DNA of 64,000 bases. Origin: Prochlorococcus sp. AG-363-P01. Lineage in GTDB: Bacteria; Cyanobacteriota; Cyanobacteriia; PCC-6307; Cyanobiaceae. Every line of letters starts with the position of its first letter. Positions within the stretch are counted from its first letter, which is position 1. Shown one piece after another: positions 9,922 through 21,546 of this stretch. The stretch lies in assembly GCA_003278225.1 (NCBI GenBank), contig QCGC01000005.1, forward strand, positions 23,797 through 87,796, read 5' to 3'. A model generated the notes under the pieces. It ran no database searches. It was not told the DNA's origin and worked only from the letters and a program-made list of their open reading frames with translations. The translations under genes were made by a program, and so were the position numbers.

Positions 9922-11469
9922 ATGAGACTTTCTGTTCTGCGATCGCAAAACGAGCTATTGGAATGGCGCAAGAAACTAACCTCAAAACTTGGTTTAGTTC
10001 CCACTATGGGTGGCTTGCACCCTGGTCATAGTCAATTAATACAATCAGCTAGTAATTCTCATTTCAACGATTCCCCGTCAAGCGTATTAGTCAGCATTTT
10101 TATAAACCCTCTTCAATTCGGACCTGATGAAGACTTCTATGAATATCCAAGAGATCTTGATAGTGATTGCCAGATCGCTGAACAATCAGGTGCTGATGCG
10201 ATATGGGCCCCTTCAATTAGGGAGGTTTTTCCAGGAGGACCAGAAGCAAATTTCAAAATCAATGTTCCTGCTTCGCTCCAGGAATATTTATGTGGCTCAA
10301 TCAGAAAAGGACACTTCGATGGTGTAGCCACTGTGATAATTCATTTGTTAAGACATGTACAACCCAACTTTCTTGTACTTGGAGAAAAAGATTGGCAACA
10401 ATTTGTAATCGTCAGAAAACTAATTCAGGATTTGTGTTTGCCTGTAAAAATGCATGGAGTAGCCACTGTTAGAGATCCCGATGGTTTGGCATACAGTTCA
10501 AGAAACCAATATCTAAGTAAATCAGAACGTGAAAGATCCTTAGCCTTACCTCGATTACTCGCCAAAGCGACTCACGATGCCCAGAAAGGCAAAGCCTTAA
10601 ATCTCAAAGAGCTAAGAGCTGACTTAAAAAGTCATGAGTTAGATGTGGATTATTTAGAAGTAGTTGACCCCCATCAACTACAACCGACTAAACCTGACAA
10701 GCATTTTTCTCTTTTAGCCGCCTCTATTAAATGCGGAACAACTCGTTTAATTGACCACACCTTTCTTATGACTCGCAAGCCAATTGTTGCCATCGATGGA
10801 CCTGCAGGCGTCGGAAAAAGTACAGTTTCGCGCGCATTTGCTAAGAAACTTGGACTACTTTATCTAGATACAGGTGCAATGTATCGAGGGGTCGCTTGGT
10901 TCATCCTTGAAAAAGGAATCAATCCCACTGATCATTTTCAAATCAAAAAAATACTAAAAGATTTCAAGCTTGAATTAGAACTATCTAATAATTGTCAAAA
11001 TGTAATTGTCAATGGGAATAACATTACAAATGCAATCCGATCTCCCAAAGTAACTTCTATTGTCTCCTCAGTAGCTGCTCAACAGCCAGTACGGGAATCA
11101 TTGACTAATCAACAAAAAAAGATAGGCCAATCTGGGGGATTAGTAGCAGAAGGTAGAGATATTGGAACTGCAGTATTTCCAAATGCTGAGCTAAAGATCT
11201 TTCTAACCGCAAGTACAAGAGAACGTGCCCAAAGAAGGAGTCTAGATTTACAGCATCAAGGTTTCTCTGTCCCAAGTTTAGATGTGTTAGAACAAGAAAT
11301 TGCAAAGCGAGATGACATGGATAGGAATAGAGAAATCTCTCCTTTAAAGCTGGCAAAAGATGCAAAAGAAGTAATCACAGATGATATGAATATTCAAGAA
11401 GTCGTTCAGAAAATAGAAGAGCTATTTCGTCTAAAAATTCCTGAGGAAGCTTGGCCTAGCCCATTCTAA
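9922..11469 (+). CDS. panC/cmk: Bifunctional pantothenate synthetase / cytidylate kinase
   Basis: N-terminal PanC (LVPTMGGLHPGHSQLI) and C-terminal CMK (AIDGPAGVGKSTVSRAFA, AEGRDIGTAVFP). Confidence 0.95.
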   Translation: MRLSVLRSQNELLEWRKKLTSKLGLVPTMGGLHPGHSQLIQSASNSHFNDSPSSVLVSIFINPLQFGPDEDFYEYPRDLDSDCQIAEQSGADAIWAPSIREVFPGGPEANFKINVPASLQEYLCGSIRKGHFDGVATVIIHLLRHVQPNFLVLGEKDWQQFVIVRKLIQDLCLPVKMHGVATVRDPDGLAYSSRNQYLSKSERERSLALPRLLAKATHDAQKGKALNLKELRADLKSHELDVDYLEVVDPHQLQPTKPDKHFSLLAASIKCGTTRLIDHTFLMTRKPIVAIDGPAGVGKSTVSRAFAKKLGLLYLDTGAMYRGVAWFILEKGINPTDHFQIKKILKDFKLELELSNNCQNVIVNGNNITNAIRSPKVTSIVSSVAAQQPVRESLTNQQKKIGQSGGLVAEGRDIGTAVFPNAELKIFLTASTRERAQRRSLDLQHQGFSVPSLDVLEQEIAKRDDMDRNREISPLKLAKDAKEVITDDMNIQEVVQKIEELFRLKIPEEAWPSPF

Positions 11470-14693: not shown

Positions 14694-16118
14694 ATGGCTC
14701 AATTTGAAAAGCTGATCCCTCCCAACGAAGGGCAAGCCATTCAATTCCTGAACGGCAGCCCAGTCGTTCCCAACAACCCAATCATTCCATTCATCCGTGG
14801 AGATGGCACAGGTGTAGATATCTGGCCTGCCACCCAAGCCGTATTGGATGCTGCCATCAAAACAGCCTATGGCAATCAGCGTCATATTGAATGGTTCAAA
14901 GTGTATGCCGGCGACGAAGCTTGTGATCTATATGGAACCTATCAATATCTTCCAAAAGATACTCTTGAGGCAATTCGCACTTATGGAGTTGCTATTAAAG
15001 GCCCTTTAACTACTCCTGTAGGTGGAGGAATTCGTTCATTAAATGTTGCATTAAGACAAATCTTCGACCTGTATTCATGTGTTCGACCCTGTCGTTATTA
15101 CGAGGGGACACCAAGCCCACATAAGCGACCTCAAGATTTAGATGTGATCGTTTATCGAGAAAATACTGAAGATATCTATATGGGAATCGAATGGGAGTCT
15201 AGCGATCCAGTATGTATAAACTTAATAAAACAACTTAATGAGAACGTAATTCCTTTAAATGGAAAACTAAAAGAGCGACAGATTCCTCAAGATTCCGCAA
15301 TAGGTATTAAGCCAGTTAGTAAAAAAGGTAGTCAAAGACATATCCGCAAGGCAATCCAACATGCCTCAAGACTTTCAGGAAAGAAACGTCATGTAACCCT
15401 TGTTCATAAGGGAAATATCATGAAATTTACTGAAGGTGCTTTTAGAGATTGGGGGTATGAATTAGCTACTACTGAGTTCCGTGATTTATGTATTACTGAA
15501 AGAGAAATCTGGATTCTAGAAAATGCAATGCATAACTCATCAATAAGTATTGAGGAAAATGCAAAGTTAATTGACCCAGGGTTCTCATCTCTAACTGAAA
15601 AGAAAAAACAAGAAATTTGCAACGAAGTGAAATCAGTTATAGAGACAATTGGCACAAGTCATGGAAATGGTAAATGGCATGAAATGATAAAAGTGGATGA
15701 TCGAATTGCAGACAGCATATTTCAACAAATTCAAACAAGACCTCAAGAATATTCAATACTTGCAACTTTGAACCTTAATGGTGACTATATTTCAGATGCA
15801 GCTGCTGCAATTGTGGGTGGTCTTGGTATGGCACCAGGAGCAAATATAGGTAATGAAGCTGCAATCTTTGAGGCCACACATGGGACTGCTCCTAAGCATG
15901 CTGGGCTGGATAGAATTAACCCAGGATCTGTAATTCTTAGTGGTGTGATGATGTTGGAATTTCTTGGCTGGCAAGAAGCAGCCGACTTAATTTCCAAAGG
16001 AATCAGTCAATCAATTTCAGATCAAAAAGTTACCTACGACCTTGCTCGTCTTCTGAATCCCCCTGTCGAACCTTTAAGTTGTAGTGGATTTGCAAAATCA
16101 ATCATTGATCGATTCTAA
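14694..16118 (+). CDS. icd: NADP-dependent isocitrate dehydrogenase
   Basis: PFIRGDGTGVDIWPA, YRENTEDIYMGIEW, LNGDYISDAAAAIVGGLGMAPGANIG. Confidence 0.95.
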   Translation: MAQFEKLIPPNEGQAIQFLNGSPVVPNNPIIPFIRGDGTGVDIWPATQAVLDAAIKTAYGNQRHIEWFKVYAGDEACDLYGTYQYLPKDTLEAIRTYGVAIKGPLTTPVGGGIRSLNVALRQIFDLYSCVRPCRYYEGTPSPHKRPQDLDVIVYRENTEDIYMGIEWESSDPVCINLIKQLNENVIPLNGKLKERQIPQDSAIGIKPVSKKGSQRHIRKAIQHASRLSGKKRHVTLVHKGNIMKFTEGAFRDWGYELATTEFRDLCITEREIWILENAMHNSSISIEENAKLIDPGFSSLTEKKKQEICNEVKSVIETIGTSHGNGKWHEMIKVDDRIADSIFQQIQTRPQEYSILATLNLNGDYISDAAAAIVGGLGMAPGANIGNEAAIFEATHGTAPKHAGLDRINPGSVILSGVMMLEFLGWQEAADLISKGISQSISDQKVTYDLARLLNPPVEPLSCSGFAKSIIDRF

Positions 16119-16183
16119 TTAAATCAAAAATATTTTCAGATCACTTTCAATTATTACTAAAGATATTTCTTCCTCCAATAATA

Positions 16184-17542
16184 TTAATTTAAACCTTCCA
16201 TTATTCTCCATGCAGATAAAAGTGTTTGCTGATCACCTAAGTTTCCTGGAAAAGTAACTATTGGCAAACCTCTTGCTAATAAGTAACCATCCGCACATAC
16301 AAGAGATAATCCTGGTAATAATTGGCCCTTTAATTGGACTGAATCAAGATTCAAACCCTTTTCTAAAAAAACATTTGTTGTGATACCTCCTTTACTAATA
16401 ATATATCCTAAAGTTGGTGTAATCTTAGCAACAATATTAGCCATAAAGTATGCTATTTTATTACCAAGATTAGTCGTGTCTTTTGAAGATTCGTAGTGAA
16501 GTCCACCACGACTTGAATAAAAAACAGGTGTTTTATTTAAAGCTATAATATGCCTTAGTTTTTCCAATAATTGATTCTCTAAGTCAAAAAGAATCCGTTG
16601 TGTTGATCTGGTCTCAAAAGCATTAGCGATCTCCTGAACTTGGAGCTCAAGGCCAGTGCAGGAGTCTTGCCTAAGTAACATTTTTAGTTGTTGATCAGCA
16701 AGTGCAACATAAGACCCTACCATTACTAATCCAGGCTTCAATTGACCAGATTTAGTCTTAAGCCTGAAAGCAGAAAACTTTTCAGGATGATGAAATTGAA
16801 CAGGAGAATTCGCTAAGCCATTTATGAAGCTTGCAGCAGAGCGAAAAAGAAACCTTTTTTGTCTTTGCAAACTTCTAACTGCCTGTCCTAAAGCAGCCAA
16901 TTGAGAAGGGAGTTCAGCATCAACAACAACTGATTGATTCCCAGAGAGTGCTATCAAGCAATCAACCAGCTTTTTCATCCCAACTGCTGACTGGCCCGCT
17001 TCATCAAGTAATTGAGTCGTGAGGCGAACAACATTTTCAGCAACTATCGCACCCTTGCTCTTTTCCTCTAACCAAAGATCTAAGGCACTAGTGGAATATC
17101 CAAAAGTCTGATCACGTGCAAACTCTGTCTTATGCACTGGGCAACCATGAAGCAAATGCACACCATTAACCGTAGTTCGTCCACCTTCAAAAAAGGCAGG
17201 GATATGGAAAGTGGCATCAAAAGGACCCAAGATTTCATTGATAATTTTTGGTTCTAGAACACCATGTCCACGAAGAGTGGAATCCCCTCGACTAACAAAA
17301 AAAACATCTTCTAGAGAAAAACAAACATCCTTGAGCGCATGATTAATTGATTGACAAGTTTGACGAATTCGATTCTCTGCTGCCTCAGCAGACATTGAAC
17401 GTGTATTAACTAATAAAAATAGCAAAGAAGATGAATGATTAAGAGCATTAATCAAAGCCTGTTGATCCCAACGCAAAAGAAGTGGACAATCACAAACAGT
17501 CTGAGAACCTGTGGGGTCATCATCGAAGATTACAACCTTCAT
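16184..17542 (-). CDS. Four-carbon acid sugar kinase family protein (DUF1537 / OtnK-like)
   Basis: MKVVIFDDDPTGSQTVCDCPLL at the N-terminus, RGDSTLRGH, C-terminal ISKGGITTN. Start placed at MKVV because the longer ORF overlaps the neighbour. Confidence 0.85.
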   Translation of the reverse strand: MKVVIFDDDPTGSQTVCDCPLLLRWDQQALINALNHSSSLLFLLVNTRSMSAEAAENRIRQTCQSINHALKDVCFSLEDVFFVSRGDSTLRGHGVLEPKIINEILGPFDATFHIPAFFEGGRTTVNGVHLLHGCPVHKTEFARDQTFGYSTSALDLWLEEKSKGAIVAENVVRLTTQLLDEAGQSAVGMKKLVDCLIALSGNQSVVVDAELPSQLAALGQAVRSLQRQKRFLFRSAASFINGLANSPVQFHHPEKFSAFRLKTKSGQLKPGLVMVGSYVALADQQLKMLLRQDSCTGLELQVQEIANAFETRSTQRILFDLENQLLEKLRHIIALNKTPVFYSSRGGLHYESSKDTTNLGNKIAYFMANIVAKITPTLGYIISKGGITTNVFLEKGLNLDSVQLKGQLLPGLSLVCADGYLLARGLPIVTFPGNLGDQQTLLSAWRIMEGLN

Positions 17543-17585
17543 AAATAATCTTTTTAATAACCAATTAGCTATTGACCTTTTAAAA

Positions 17586-18764
17586 CTAATACTGCTTCCA
17601 ACTATCAGGAATCCTAACAAAAGAAGAATCTAATTGAGCTATCGATTCGCATCCTAAAAGCTTCATTGTACGGATAATATCTGTTCGAATAATCTCAATG
17701 GCTCTAGCAACACCAGGTCCGCCACCTGCAGCAAGGCCATAAGCATAGGCCCTGCCTATAAGCACACCCTTTGCTCCTAAGCAGATTGCTTTAACAACAT
17801 CACTACCTCTACGAATTCCTCCGTCTAAAAGAACATCTATTCGATCATTTACAGCATCAACAATCTCAGGAAGAACCCTGATTGTAGGCGCAACGCTATC
17901 CAATTGTCTGGCTCCATGATTGGAAACTACTATTGCATCTACACCTAATTCAACTGCTTTTCTTGCATCATCACCTATATGAATTCCCTTAACAATAATT
18001 TTTCCACCCCATGCCTCTCGAATCCATGCCAAATCATCCCAGGTAACAACTGATTGCTCTAACGCTGGTCCTATTTCGGTGTATCCCATTGGTCCATCGT
18101 CTAATTGAACATTTGGAAAACTCATTAACCCTCCATCTCCAAGCCATTGCGACAACCAACAAGGTTTCACTAACATTTGTGAGATATAAGGCAGCATTGT
18201 GATCGGATTCATTGATAACAACTCCTTAGTACCATTCCGAACATCACGTTCTCGCAAACCAGATACTGGCGTATCTATAGTTACAACTATTGCGGAGAAA
18301 CCTGCCGATTTTGCTCTTTCAATAGTTTTTAAAGCAACATCCTTACCTCCAAGAAGGTAAAGCTGATACCAAGCAGGAAAATTTGTTGCTGCTTTTACTT
18401 CCTCTAATCTACAACCAGAAAGAGTTGAGAGTGTATAACCAGTACCTGCACTTCCTGCCTCACGAGCAGCAACAACTTCACCTTTAGGATAAAACATCCT
18501 GCTACTTCCTACTGGTGCAAGAAGGAAGGGAAGTTCAAATTTTTGATCTATAACTTTTATTCCTAAATCACAAGAAGGAGTCGCAACTGCACATCTAGGT
18601 CGAAAATATATGTCGTTATATGCAGTACAGTTTTGCAATAAAGTTTGCTCTCTATCAGCGCCGCTATCTATATAATCAAAAACCATCTGAGGTAGTCGAT
18701 TTTTGGCTAAAACACGTAGATCTCCAACATTTACTACGCTTGGAGCTCCCACATTCCCACCCAT
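17586..18764 (-). CDS. lldD: FMN-dependent alpha-hydroxy acid dehydrogenase/oxidase (LldD / lactate oxidase family)
   Basis: VVSNHGARQLD active-site motif, VLLDGGIRRGSDVVKAICLGAKGVLIGRAYAYGL FMN/phosphate motif. Confidence 0.9.
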   Translation of the reverse strand: MGGNVGAPSVVNVGDLRVLAKNRLPQMVFDYIDSGADREQTLLQNCTAYNDIYFRPRCAVATPSCDLGIKVIDQKFELPFLLAPVGSSRMFYPKGEVVAAREAGSAGTGYTLSTLSGCRLEEVKAATNFPAWYQLYLLGGKDVALKTIERAKSAGFSAIVVTIDTPVSGLRERDVRNGTKELLSMNPITMLPYISQMLVKPCWLSQWLGDGGLMSFPNVQLDDGPMGYTEIGPALEQSVVTWDDLAWIREAWGGKIIVKGIHIGDDARKAVELGVDAIVVSNHGARQLDSVAPTIRVLPEIVDAVNDRIDVLLDGGIRRGSDVVKAICLGAKGVLIGRAYAYGLAAGGGPGVARAIEIIRTDIIRTMKLLGCESIAQLDSSFVRIPDSWKQY

Positions 18765-18877
18765 CGAGATAAATGACGAAATAATATATTCATTCTACGA
18801 GATATCAGCAATCCATGCAGGAAGCTACGCATAAATGAGAAATTTCTCAACTCCAAAAACAAACTGGAAGATTAAAA

Positions 18878-20593
18878 TCACTTATAATACTTTTTTTTAG
18901 ATGTTCTTCCTATACCAGGATTAAAAGTATTAGTGGGGTCTAAGCCACGGTAAAAGTTAATCAAGCATGGATCTGCTTTATATAAATGGCCTACATTGTG
19001 CTCAGCTGGGTATTTTGCATTATTCCTATCTAAAATCTTTAAGATTTGATCTTTCAAGAGATTAGAGTCAACTCCCTTTTTAAGGACAAAATCCCAATGA
19101 AAAACCATACATAAAAAATGACCTAACTGAAAAGTTTCTGCCATTTGAGATATTACTTCAGTTGGAAGCAAGTCATTCCAAGTAGAGCAATTCCTTGGTA
19201 GGGCTATATCTAATGGCAAAAGTTCTCCTACATTAGCTGAATTTAATATACGATATCTAGTCGGCGCCGCTCCTGCGACATATCGATGCAGAAGTGCGTC
19301 ATTTCCTTCAGATTTAGTACATGAAATATACTCATATTGATCCTGATTAGAAGTCACTAACTCCAACAGATTCTGGGTAAGTGAAATAGATTCGTCACTT
19401 GCTAAAATCAACATATAATGTTCATATTTATCACGAAAATTACGTAGCCTAATTGGAAGGTGATCAGGCAAAAGATTCGCTAGAAATTGTAAGGCCTTAT
19501 CAGCGAAGTGTTTTGGTAAGAAAGAAATTTTTTCAGTAATTTGATCCACACGTCTTTTTATAGATAAAAGTCTTGGCAAGAATTTTGTGCCAAAGTATTT
19601 AATAAAAATAAATGTATCTTTGCAATATTTATCTGATCCATCAAAATAACTACGGTGCATGTATTCACCCATATCAGGCAAATGATCAAATCCAGATAAA
19701 ATACTCTTCCTTAGATCGGTCAAATGTTTTGGATCATTTGTGCCAACGAAGTAAACTTGTTCTTTTTTGGGAAGTAAAAAAGTATCAACTCTTACGGCAA
19801 AGACAGCAATTTTACCTGCACAGCCACTTGCCTCATAAAGGCGTCTATTATCAGCGTTGAATCTAGCAGGTGTATTTGCCTGAATATTTCTAACACGCTT
19901 TTTATATTCTTGATCAGATGCCATTTTTGTTGTATTTGGCAAGTTATTTAGCTCAAAATTAGACGATTCCAAATTAGTAAGTATCTCCTCAGGCGTATTG
20001 CCTAAGTTAATTCCAAGATGATTAACTAGTTCTAGACTTCCTTCATCATTTAATCTTGCAAATAAAGATAACTCTGTATAGGCAGGGCCCCGATTAACTA
20101 AGTTCCCGCCAGAATTATTGCACACACCACCAACAATTGAAGCGCCAATACAAGAAGAACCTATTACAGAATGTGGGCCTCTACCTAGTGGTAGTAGTTT
20201 TTCTTCTAACTGATATAAAGTTGAACCCGGAAATGCAATAATTTGAGAGGCATTATTTAGCAAAACCAACTGATCAAGTTGAAGAGTATTGATAATGACA
20301 ATATCACGATCATAATTGTCTCCATCTGGAGTTGAGCCCCCAGTTAAACCAGTATTAGCAGCTTGCATAATAATAACCTTATTAAAAGAGATACATACTT
20401 CTAATGTTTGCCACAATTGCAACAAGTTCTTTGGGAAGAGCACAGCACAGGCTTCTCCACTCCCAACACGAATGCCTGTGCTGTAAAAGCGAATCTTCTC
20501 CTGCTGAGTTAATACTGACTCTTTTTCAAGAATAGTAAATAAAGAATTTTGGAAGTCATCCAACTGATTATTGATCATAGAAAAAAAAGTCAT
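18878..20593 (-). CDS. dld: Quinone-dependent D-lactate dehydrogenase (E. coli Dld-like)
   Basis: AANTGLTGGSTPDGDNYDRDIVIINT, GPHSVIGSSCIGASIVGGVCNNSGGNLVNRGPAYTELSLFAR. Confidence 0.9.
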   Translation of the reverse strand: MTFFSMINNQLDDFQNSLFTILEKESVLTQQEKIRFYSTGIRVGSGEACAVLFPKNLLQLWQTLEVCISFNKVIIMQAANTGLTGGSTPDGDNYDRDIVIINTLQLDQLVLLNNASQIIAFPGSTLYQLEEKLLPLGRGPHSVIGSSCIGASIVGGVCNNSGGNLVNRGPAYTELSLFARLNDEGSLELVNHLGINLGNTPEEILTNLESSNFELNNLPNTTKMASDQEYKKRVRNIQANTPARFNADNRRLYEASGCAGKIAVFAVRVDTFLLPKKEQVYFVGTNDPKHLTDLRKSILSGFDHLPDMGEYMHRSYFDGSDKYCKDTFIFIKYFGTKFLPRLLSIKRRVDQITEKISFLPKHFADKALQFLANLLPDHLPIRLRNFRDKYEHYMLILASDESISLTQNLLELVTSNQDQYEYISCTKSEGNDALLHRYVAGAAPTRYRILNSANVGELLPLDIALPRNCSTWNDLLPTEVISQMAETFQLGHFLCMVFHWDFVLKKGVDSNLLKDQILKILDRNNAKYPAEHNVGHLYKADPCLINFYRGLDPTNTFNPGIGRTSKKKYYK

Positions 20594-20688: not shown

Positions 20689-21546
20689 TTAATCAACTAG
20701 AAATCTACACTGAAGCATTTGTTGAGCTCCCGGCTCTAGTAAAAGTGTACGCTCACCAGTGATCAAAGATTCTCTTGGGCTTGTCCATGCCTCCAAACAA
20801 ACCATCTTTCTAGGAGGATCTGTCCAAACAACAGTTAAGTCCATAGGTTCTTGATGCTGTAAAGAAATGCGCCTTCCGTTCAATAAATCCTGAAGGGTTA
20901 CGACTTTCGAAGGTCCACATATGAAATCAACTCCTTTCATTAAATCTGCCAATTGATTATCAGTATCACTTTCCATACTGTTTAGATGATTAATACAAGT
21001 AGAAGGTAAAGCCAGAATTTCCGTTTTTCCCAAATCCATCACATTAAAATATGGATGCAATCCAAAAGAGAACGGCATCTTTTCTTGGCTACGATTCTCA
21101 ATGTTAATCTTAAAGTCAAGTGCATTTTTTTCTAAAGTAACTTTAATAGCAATATTAAAAAAGTATGGATAAACAGAACGAGTTAATTCAGAATCAAAGA
21201 GACTTAACAAAAAACCATTTTGACCATCAATAAACTTTATTTGCCAATCAGAATCTCTTGCAAATCCATGTTGTTTTAGTATAAAATTTTTATTGGCTAA
21301 TGGTAAGCAATTACCAGGTAAGTTTCCGCAAATAGGGAATAAAATAGGAATTCCACCTCTAACACTTTTTCCTTTCTGAGAAAATCGCTCAAAATCAAAA
21401 TAAAGAATTTCCATTCCATTACATTGCCATTCGGTAATCAAACCACCGCATTCAGGAACGATCCGCAAGCGATTTCCTAAATCAATATCTAATAACTCCC
21501 AATGATTATAAGGTAACTCCTTTTTAGAGAAAATAGTTGCCATCAA
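20689..21546 (-). CDS. Aldose 1-epimerase family protein
   Basis: GGLITEWQCNGMEILYFD, RGGIPILFPICGNL, FGLHPYFNV typical of the galactose mutarotase-like family. Confidence 0.85.
   Translation of the reverse strand: MMATIFSKKELPYNHWELLDIDLGNRLRIVPECGGLITEWQCNGMEILYFDFERFSQKGKSVRGGIPILFPICGNLPGNCLPLANKNFILKQHGFARDSDWQIKFIDGQNGFLLSLFDSELTRSVYPYFFNIAIKVTLEKNALDFKINIENRSQEKMPFSFGLHPYFNVMDLGKTEILALPSTCINHLNSMESDTDNQLADLMKGVDFICGPSKVVTLQDLLNGRRISLQHQEPMDLTVVWTDPPRKMVCLEAWTSPRESLITGERTLLLEPGAQQMLQCRFLVD

Follow-up and report, generated by a model that had tools for sequence, protein, structure and literature searches.

The window analysed here, a 64,000-nucleotide stretch of the genome of Prochlorococcus sp. 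AG-363-P01 (contig QCGC01000005.1, positions 23,797 to 87,796), raises the question of why an autotroph should carry, side by side and on one strand, genes for a D-lactate dehydrogenase (Dld), an LldD-like enzyme predicted to use flavin mononucleotide (FMN), and a kinase of the DUF1537 family. Comparison of 151 genomes of the family, 94 of them near-complete, showed that the chromosomal site between icd and galM, where these genes lie, holds one of two cassettes, either glcF-kinase-glcE or kinase-lldD(-dld), and that no genome combines the LldD-like enzyme with GlcD or GlcF. We assign a probability of about 0.6 to the reading that the LldD-dld cassette repeatedly replaces GlcDEF, an enzyme with iron-sulfur (Fe-S) clusters and flavin adenine dinucleotide (FAD), in picocyanobacteria.

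Genomes with GlcD have the gene order icd, glcF, kinase (on the opposite strand), glcE and galM, and their GlcD gene is located elsewhere on the chromosome, unlinked to the icd-galM site. The order in LldD-like Prochlorococcus is icd, kinase, lldD, (dld) and galM, with both glc slots empty. Five Synechococcus single-amplified or metagenome-assembled genomes displayed the order icd, dld, lldD, kinase (opposite strand) and galM; here dld-lldD occupies the glcF slot, glcE is gone and the genome is without GlcD. Two Synechococcus lineages acquired dld-lldD in this slot, and dld and lldD follow each other in the same order in both insertion layouts. High-light-type genomes kept the kinase gene alone at the site. 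The initial annotation had described the three-gene cluster and proposed checking its co-occurrence across genomes. The cluster recurs in dozens of genomes, far beyond chance, and Dld, counted by full-scoring matches, is encoded in 25 of the 151 genomes, 24 of which are LldD-like, but the occupancy of the slot by glcE and glcF had been missed.

The LldD-like gene was found in 33 of the 151 genomes, leaving out weak, unrelated matches in G114 and G144. A true GlcD, which scores about 500 bits, was found in none of the 33, and GlcF, present in 99 of the 151 genomes, was likewise absent from all of them. The near-complete genomes comprise 14 with the LldD-like gene, 74 with GlcD, none with both and six with neither, the last being G025 and five g18 genomes, which we take to be high-light Prochlorococcus. 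The Prochlorococcus-like window genome is 65% complete, yet its locus is intact, and the complete congener G052 is also without GlcD and GlcF. Mutual exclusion and the repeated exchange described below, seen in low-light Prochlorococcus and part of Synechococcus, suggest that both cassettes do the same job. G025 (L102), which is near-complete and Synechococcus-like, has lost all three of glcD, glcE and glcF and did not gain lldD; its galM is also missing.

The locus states interleave, with 8 changes, on a tree built from six genes that flank the site. On a tree of rpoB-rpoC1-rpoC2, which are unlinked to the locus, at least 9 changes are required for the LldD-like gene, and likewise for GlcD, when three incomplete genomes are set aside; many nodes are weak and the number of events is approximate. 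A single ancient replacement was rejected on the interleaving in two trees, many of whose nodes are weak. When independent evolution of the two systems was simulated on the rpoB-rpoC1-rpoC2 tree with fitted rates, zero co-occurrence arose in 1 of 423 accepted runs. Furthermore, strongly supported branches gave five independent pairs that were informative, every one of them reciprocal (sign test, p = 0.0625).

The cassette types are separated by 1 change on the Prochlorococcus kinase tree, compared with 3 (glgP), 4 (icd), 4 (ho1), 5 (galM), 6 (abh) and 7 (nhe) changes on trees of neighbouring genes and about 7.5 in shuffles; therefore, the kinase gene travels with the cassette in Prochlorococcus. 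Such a decay of linkage toward the flanks is as expected from homologous recombination. The LldD-like Synechococcus genomes retain a Synechococcus-type kinase, and a single clade of all LldD-linked kinases was rejected by the approximately unbiased test (p = 0.0005), which indicates that the Synechococcus insertion was a separate event.

The site and its surroundings in the window are made up of the following features.

14694..16118, plus strand: icd, the left flank of the variable cassette, in the same position in nearly all relatives.
16119..16183, no strand: the empty glcF slot, 65 base pairs between icd and the kinase gene, where GlcD-positive relatives encode a GlcF of 450 residues (e.g. 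L106:8055-9413).
16184..17542, minus strand: DUF1537 kinase, 452 residues from ATG 17542, with PF07005 and PF17042; start set by relatives.
17586..18764, minus strand: LldD-like FMN 2-hydroxy-acid dehydrogenase, 392 residues, with PF01070, in the glcE slot.
18878..20593, minus strand: dld, E. coli-type FAD respiratory D-lactate dehydrogenase, matching PF09330, NF008387 and 1F0X.
20689..21546, minus strand: galM, aldose 1-epimerase-like, with PF01263; the right flank, kept in both locus states.

The three minus-strand genes of the initial annotation were all present where it had placed them, and the aldose epimerase gene that it noted upstream is real, as the PF01263 match shows. The kinase gene likewise exists, but its start had been set wrongly at TTG 17620; because alignments of relatives begin at residue 27 of that call, the start was moved to ATG 17542, which leaves a gap of 43 base pairs to lldD and no overlap. 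Translation of dld probably starts at M6, about position 20578, where its relatives begin. A promoter scan found promoter-like sites no more frequently than in shuffled sequences. Elsewhere in the window, an open reading frame of 515 residues (9922-11469) reads, from its sequence, as a fusion of PanC and cytidylate kinase; pebA, pebB and a heme oxygenase gene lie near it.

The enzyme types named in the initial annotation were borne out by profile matches for all three genes. Dld scored 388 bits against PF09330 and 845 bits against the NCBIfam D-lactate dehydrogenase NF008387 (cut-off 391), aligned with E. coli Dld (1F0X) over the full length (E = 1.7e-199), and fell just short of the PF01565 cut-off (26.0 against 26.4). 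These scores place it in the E. coli-type respiratory family, from whose namesake it differs in its cyanobacterial host and in its linkage to lldD and the kinase gene. In the g40 genomes (G039 and G078) dld adjoins lexA, away from lldD (L119:8738-10438 and L121:8282-10006), and these genes form a separate long branch on the Dld tree. G120 (L128:8760-10460) is the only sampled genome with both Dld and GlcDEF, and its Dld gene sits elsewhere; therefore, Dld does not exclude GlcDEF.

The LldD-like protein scored 415 bits against PF01070 (FMN_dh), and the catalytic residues Tyr24, Tyr129, Asp157, Arg164, Lys230, His254 and Arg257 (numbered as in glycolate oxidase, GOX) were invariant in 73 aligned sequences, with Tyr24 scored in the 71 rows that cover it. 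By these signs it is a member of the FMN 2-hydroxy-acid oxidoreductase superfamily, sharing fold, catalytic residues and the FMN_dh domain with E. coli LldD, (S)-mandelate dehydrogenase, plant GOX and bacterial LOX. It remained under the cut-offs of every L-lactate equivalog (319 bits against NCBIfam LldD NF008398, cut-off 376; 286 bits against NF033901, cut-off 550), and also under those of the LOX (202 bits) and MftD (310 bits) equivalogs, from all of which it is set apart as a subfamily of its own with the motif PVGSSR and a Leu replacing Trp108 of GOX. A long hydrophobic loop is common to it and the membrane-bound dehydrogenases of the family. In a structure search with its model, glycolate oxidases were nearest by E-value, and the top query TM-score (0.85) was to the membrane (S)-mandelate dehydrogenase 6bfg. 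The picocyanobacterial proteins form one clade (support 100) on the protein tree, and the nearest outgroups, in a search reaching close relatives only, were metagenome-assembled genomes of Eremiobacterota and Acidobacteria (56-63%). In the Eremiobacterota sequence L224 the relative lies near a gene for a KatG-like peroxidase, and those of the Acidobacteria (L229 and L234) adjoin a gene of 798 residues.

The kinase exceeded the cut-offs of both DUF1537 profiles, PF07005 (SBD_N, 147 bits) and PF17042 (NBD_C, 88 bits), and is on this basis assigned to the family, whose two domains and fold it shares with OtnK, DtnK and the D-threonate/erythronate kinases. Its AlphaFold model matched DUF1537 structures only (3dqq, 5dmh, 1yzy and 4xgj), from which the picocyanobacterial protein is very divergent (15-21%), and its score of 69 bits lies far below the D-threonate kinase equivalog cut-off of 450. 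It further differs from other DUF1537 kinases in being a core gene of its family of genomes with no PdxA-like dehydrogenase or aldolase gene adjacent. A role as a gene specific to the swap was rejected, since the kinase is near-universal (140 of 151 genomes, including genomes without either oxidase), though its alleles follow the cassette. The kinase is also not needed as a missing glycerate kinase (GLYK): no class II GLYK (PF02595) was found in the family genomes searched, and candidates for a class III, plant-type D-glycerate 3-kinase are present at L162:644-1705 (G052), for which the best PDB matches were GLYKs, and at L163:491-1567 (G004). In L207 (G042, AG-404-P15) the DUF1537 kinase is in two frames, owing to a sequencing error or to decay of the gene.

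The substrates of GlcDEF-type enzymes are glycolate and D-lactate, and those of the FMN 2-hydroxy-acid family are L-2-hydroxy acids and glycolate. Glycolate is thus the natural substrate common to both enzyme types, from which we infer that the LldD-like enzyme may oxidise it, and genomic complementarity likewise points to a possible glycolate dehydrogenase function like that of GlcDEF. Both systems share the genomic site, a complementary distribution and, presumably, oxidation of 2-hydroxy acids into the respiratory chain; GlcDEF is a three-subunit FAD/Fe-S enzyme of unrelated fold, and the LldD-like enzyme a single FMN protein. We propose that the three-subunit enzyme would repeatedly give way to the single, iron-free one, which would oxidise the glycolate from Rubisco oxygenation, and probably also L-lactate, and hand the electrons to a membrane quinone. 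Dld would take on D-lactate, the other substrate of GlcDEF, so that GlcDEF would be matched by the LldD-like enzyme and Dld together. The cassette would spread via homologous recombination in its flanks, with the unlinked glcD lost afterwards and the kinase, a resident core enzyme, carried along. A route from 2-hydroxy acids into the quinone pool, as suggested in the initial annotation, is likely, and a dual L-lactate/glycolate enzyme fits the combined evidence best.

Several observations weigh against the replacement of GlcDEF by the LldD-dld cassette. The pair Trp108 and Thr78, which marks the substrate pocket of plant-type GOX, is absent: the position of W108 is Leu (Leu115) in 73 of 73 sequences, that of T78 is Val (Val85) in 72 of 73, and that of L161 is Ser. 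Two Acidobacteria relatives adjoin a rhamnose transporter gene and/or a rhamnosidase-size gene, which fits L-lactate; in L229 (Acidobacteria gp2) the relative lies between genes for an L-rhamnose transporter and a predicted alpha-L-rhamnosidase of 798 residues, and rhamnose breakdown yields L-lactate. Nine LldD-like genomes are without Dld, and the high-light-type genomes and G025 live without either system. GlcD2-like proteins (weak TIGR00387 matches of about 450 residues) persist in most LldD-like genomes and could process glycolate or D-lactate. Finally, the exclusivity could be a mechanical result of the common site, and with five pairs, whose floor is 0.0625, no p value under 0.05 could come out of the strict paired test.

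These points feed the alternative that survives best, though it is rather doubtful, namely that dld-lldD is a plain module for D- and L-lactate oxidation, not equivalent to a glycolate system, which overwrote glcE and glcF and left an orphan glcD to decay. Its lactate would come from methylglyoxal detoxification, fermentation or neighbours. The active-site residues, which are not GOX-like, the rhamnose cluster of the Acidobacteria relatives, the close pairing of Dld with the LldD-like enzyme, the survival of high-light-type genomes with neither system and the kinase alleles travelling with the cassette are all in keeping with it. However, the overwriting would have to be repeated many times, yet none of the 151 genomes holds the LldD-like gene elsewhere beside GlcDEF, as G120 does hold Dld, and in Synechococcus glcE and glcD were lost as well, even though the insertion occupies the glcF slot. 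Replacement of GlcDEF by the LldD-dld cassette is preferred.

It is very unlikely that the oxidoreductases belong to an uptake-linked, mixotrophic route feeding four-carbon acids to the kinase, as the initial annotation had considered. Adjacency and strand are conserved and the kinase does belong to DUF1537, but it is near-universal, occurring in some genomes without any oxidase, and neither a PdxA-like dehydrogenase nor an aldolase gene is adjacent. An LldP/GlcA-type permease (PF02652) was found in none of the 37 family genomes searched, complete ones included, which argues against uptake.

Most improbable of all is the fermentative interpretation published for SS120, in which lactate dehydrogenases regenerate NAD+ during glucose use: with glucose, its dld transcript rose about 5-fold and its L-lactate dehydrogenase protein about 9-fold (PMC2565063, PMC10100731), but the primers published for dld match, with zero mismatches, the E. 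coli-type Dld of G010, that family is FAD/quinone-linked and lactate-oxidising, lldD encodes an FMN enzyme and neither family uses NAD+, so that family identity already disfavours this reading. The exact primer match indicates that SS120 dld is of the lactate-oxidising respiratory type, and the glucose induction would fit a co-regulated pair.

GOX/LOX candidates were previously reported in MIT9211 and NATL2A only (PMC9723591), and these are very likely the same lldD gene; glcD2 is also discussed there, and the reciprocal loss of GlcDEF, the common site and the repeated exchange are not reported. Glycolate and lactate both go unmentioned in PMC10119275 and PMC7522525. No description of the reciprocal exchange was found in the literature searched; an earlier mention in Hackenberg 2011 or Eisenhut 2008 is possible.

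In conclusion, the published 'lactic fermentation' dld of SS120 is corrected to a respiratory, lactate-oxidising enzyme that does not regenerate NAD+. We offer tentatively the broader proposal that a recombining cassette repeatedly switches marine picocyanobacteria from the bacterial Fe-S glycolate dehydrogenase to an FMN enzyme of L-lactate dehydrogenase origin that oxidises glycolate and needs no iron, with iron scarcity as a possible driver. The iron-sparing motive is speculation that starts from the Fe-S clusters of GlcF, of which the LldD-like enzyme has none. If the proposal is true, the switch would parallel the answer of plants to photorespiration, GOX, and a shortage of iron, in the lower photic zone as well as in iron-poor waters, might be what drives it. 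Marine photosynthesis makes glycolate as a major product, and the either/or distribution of the two enzymes predicts which lineages oxidise it, and at what iron cost.

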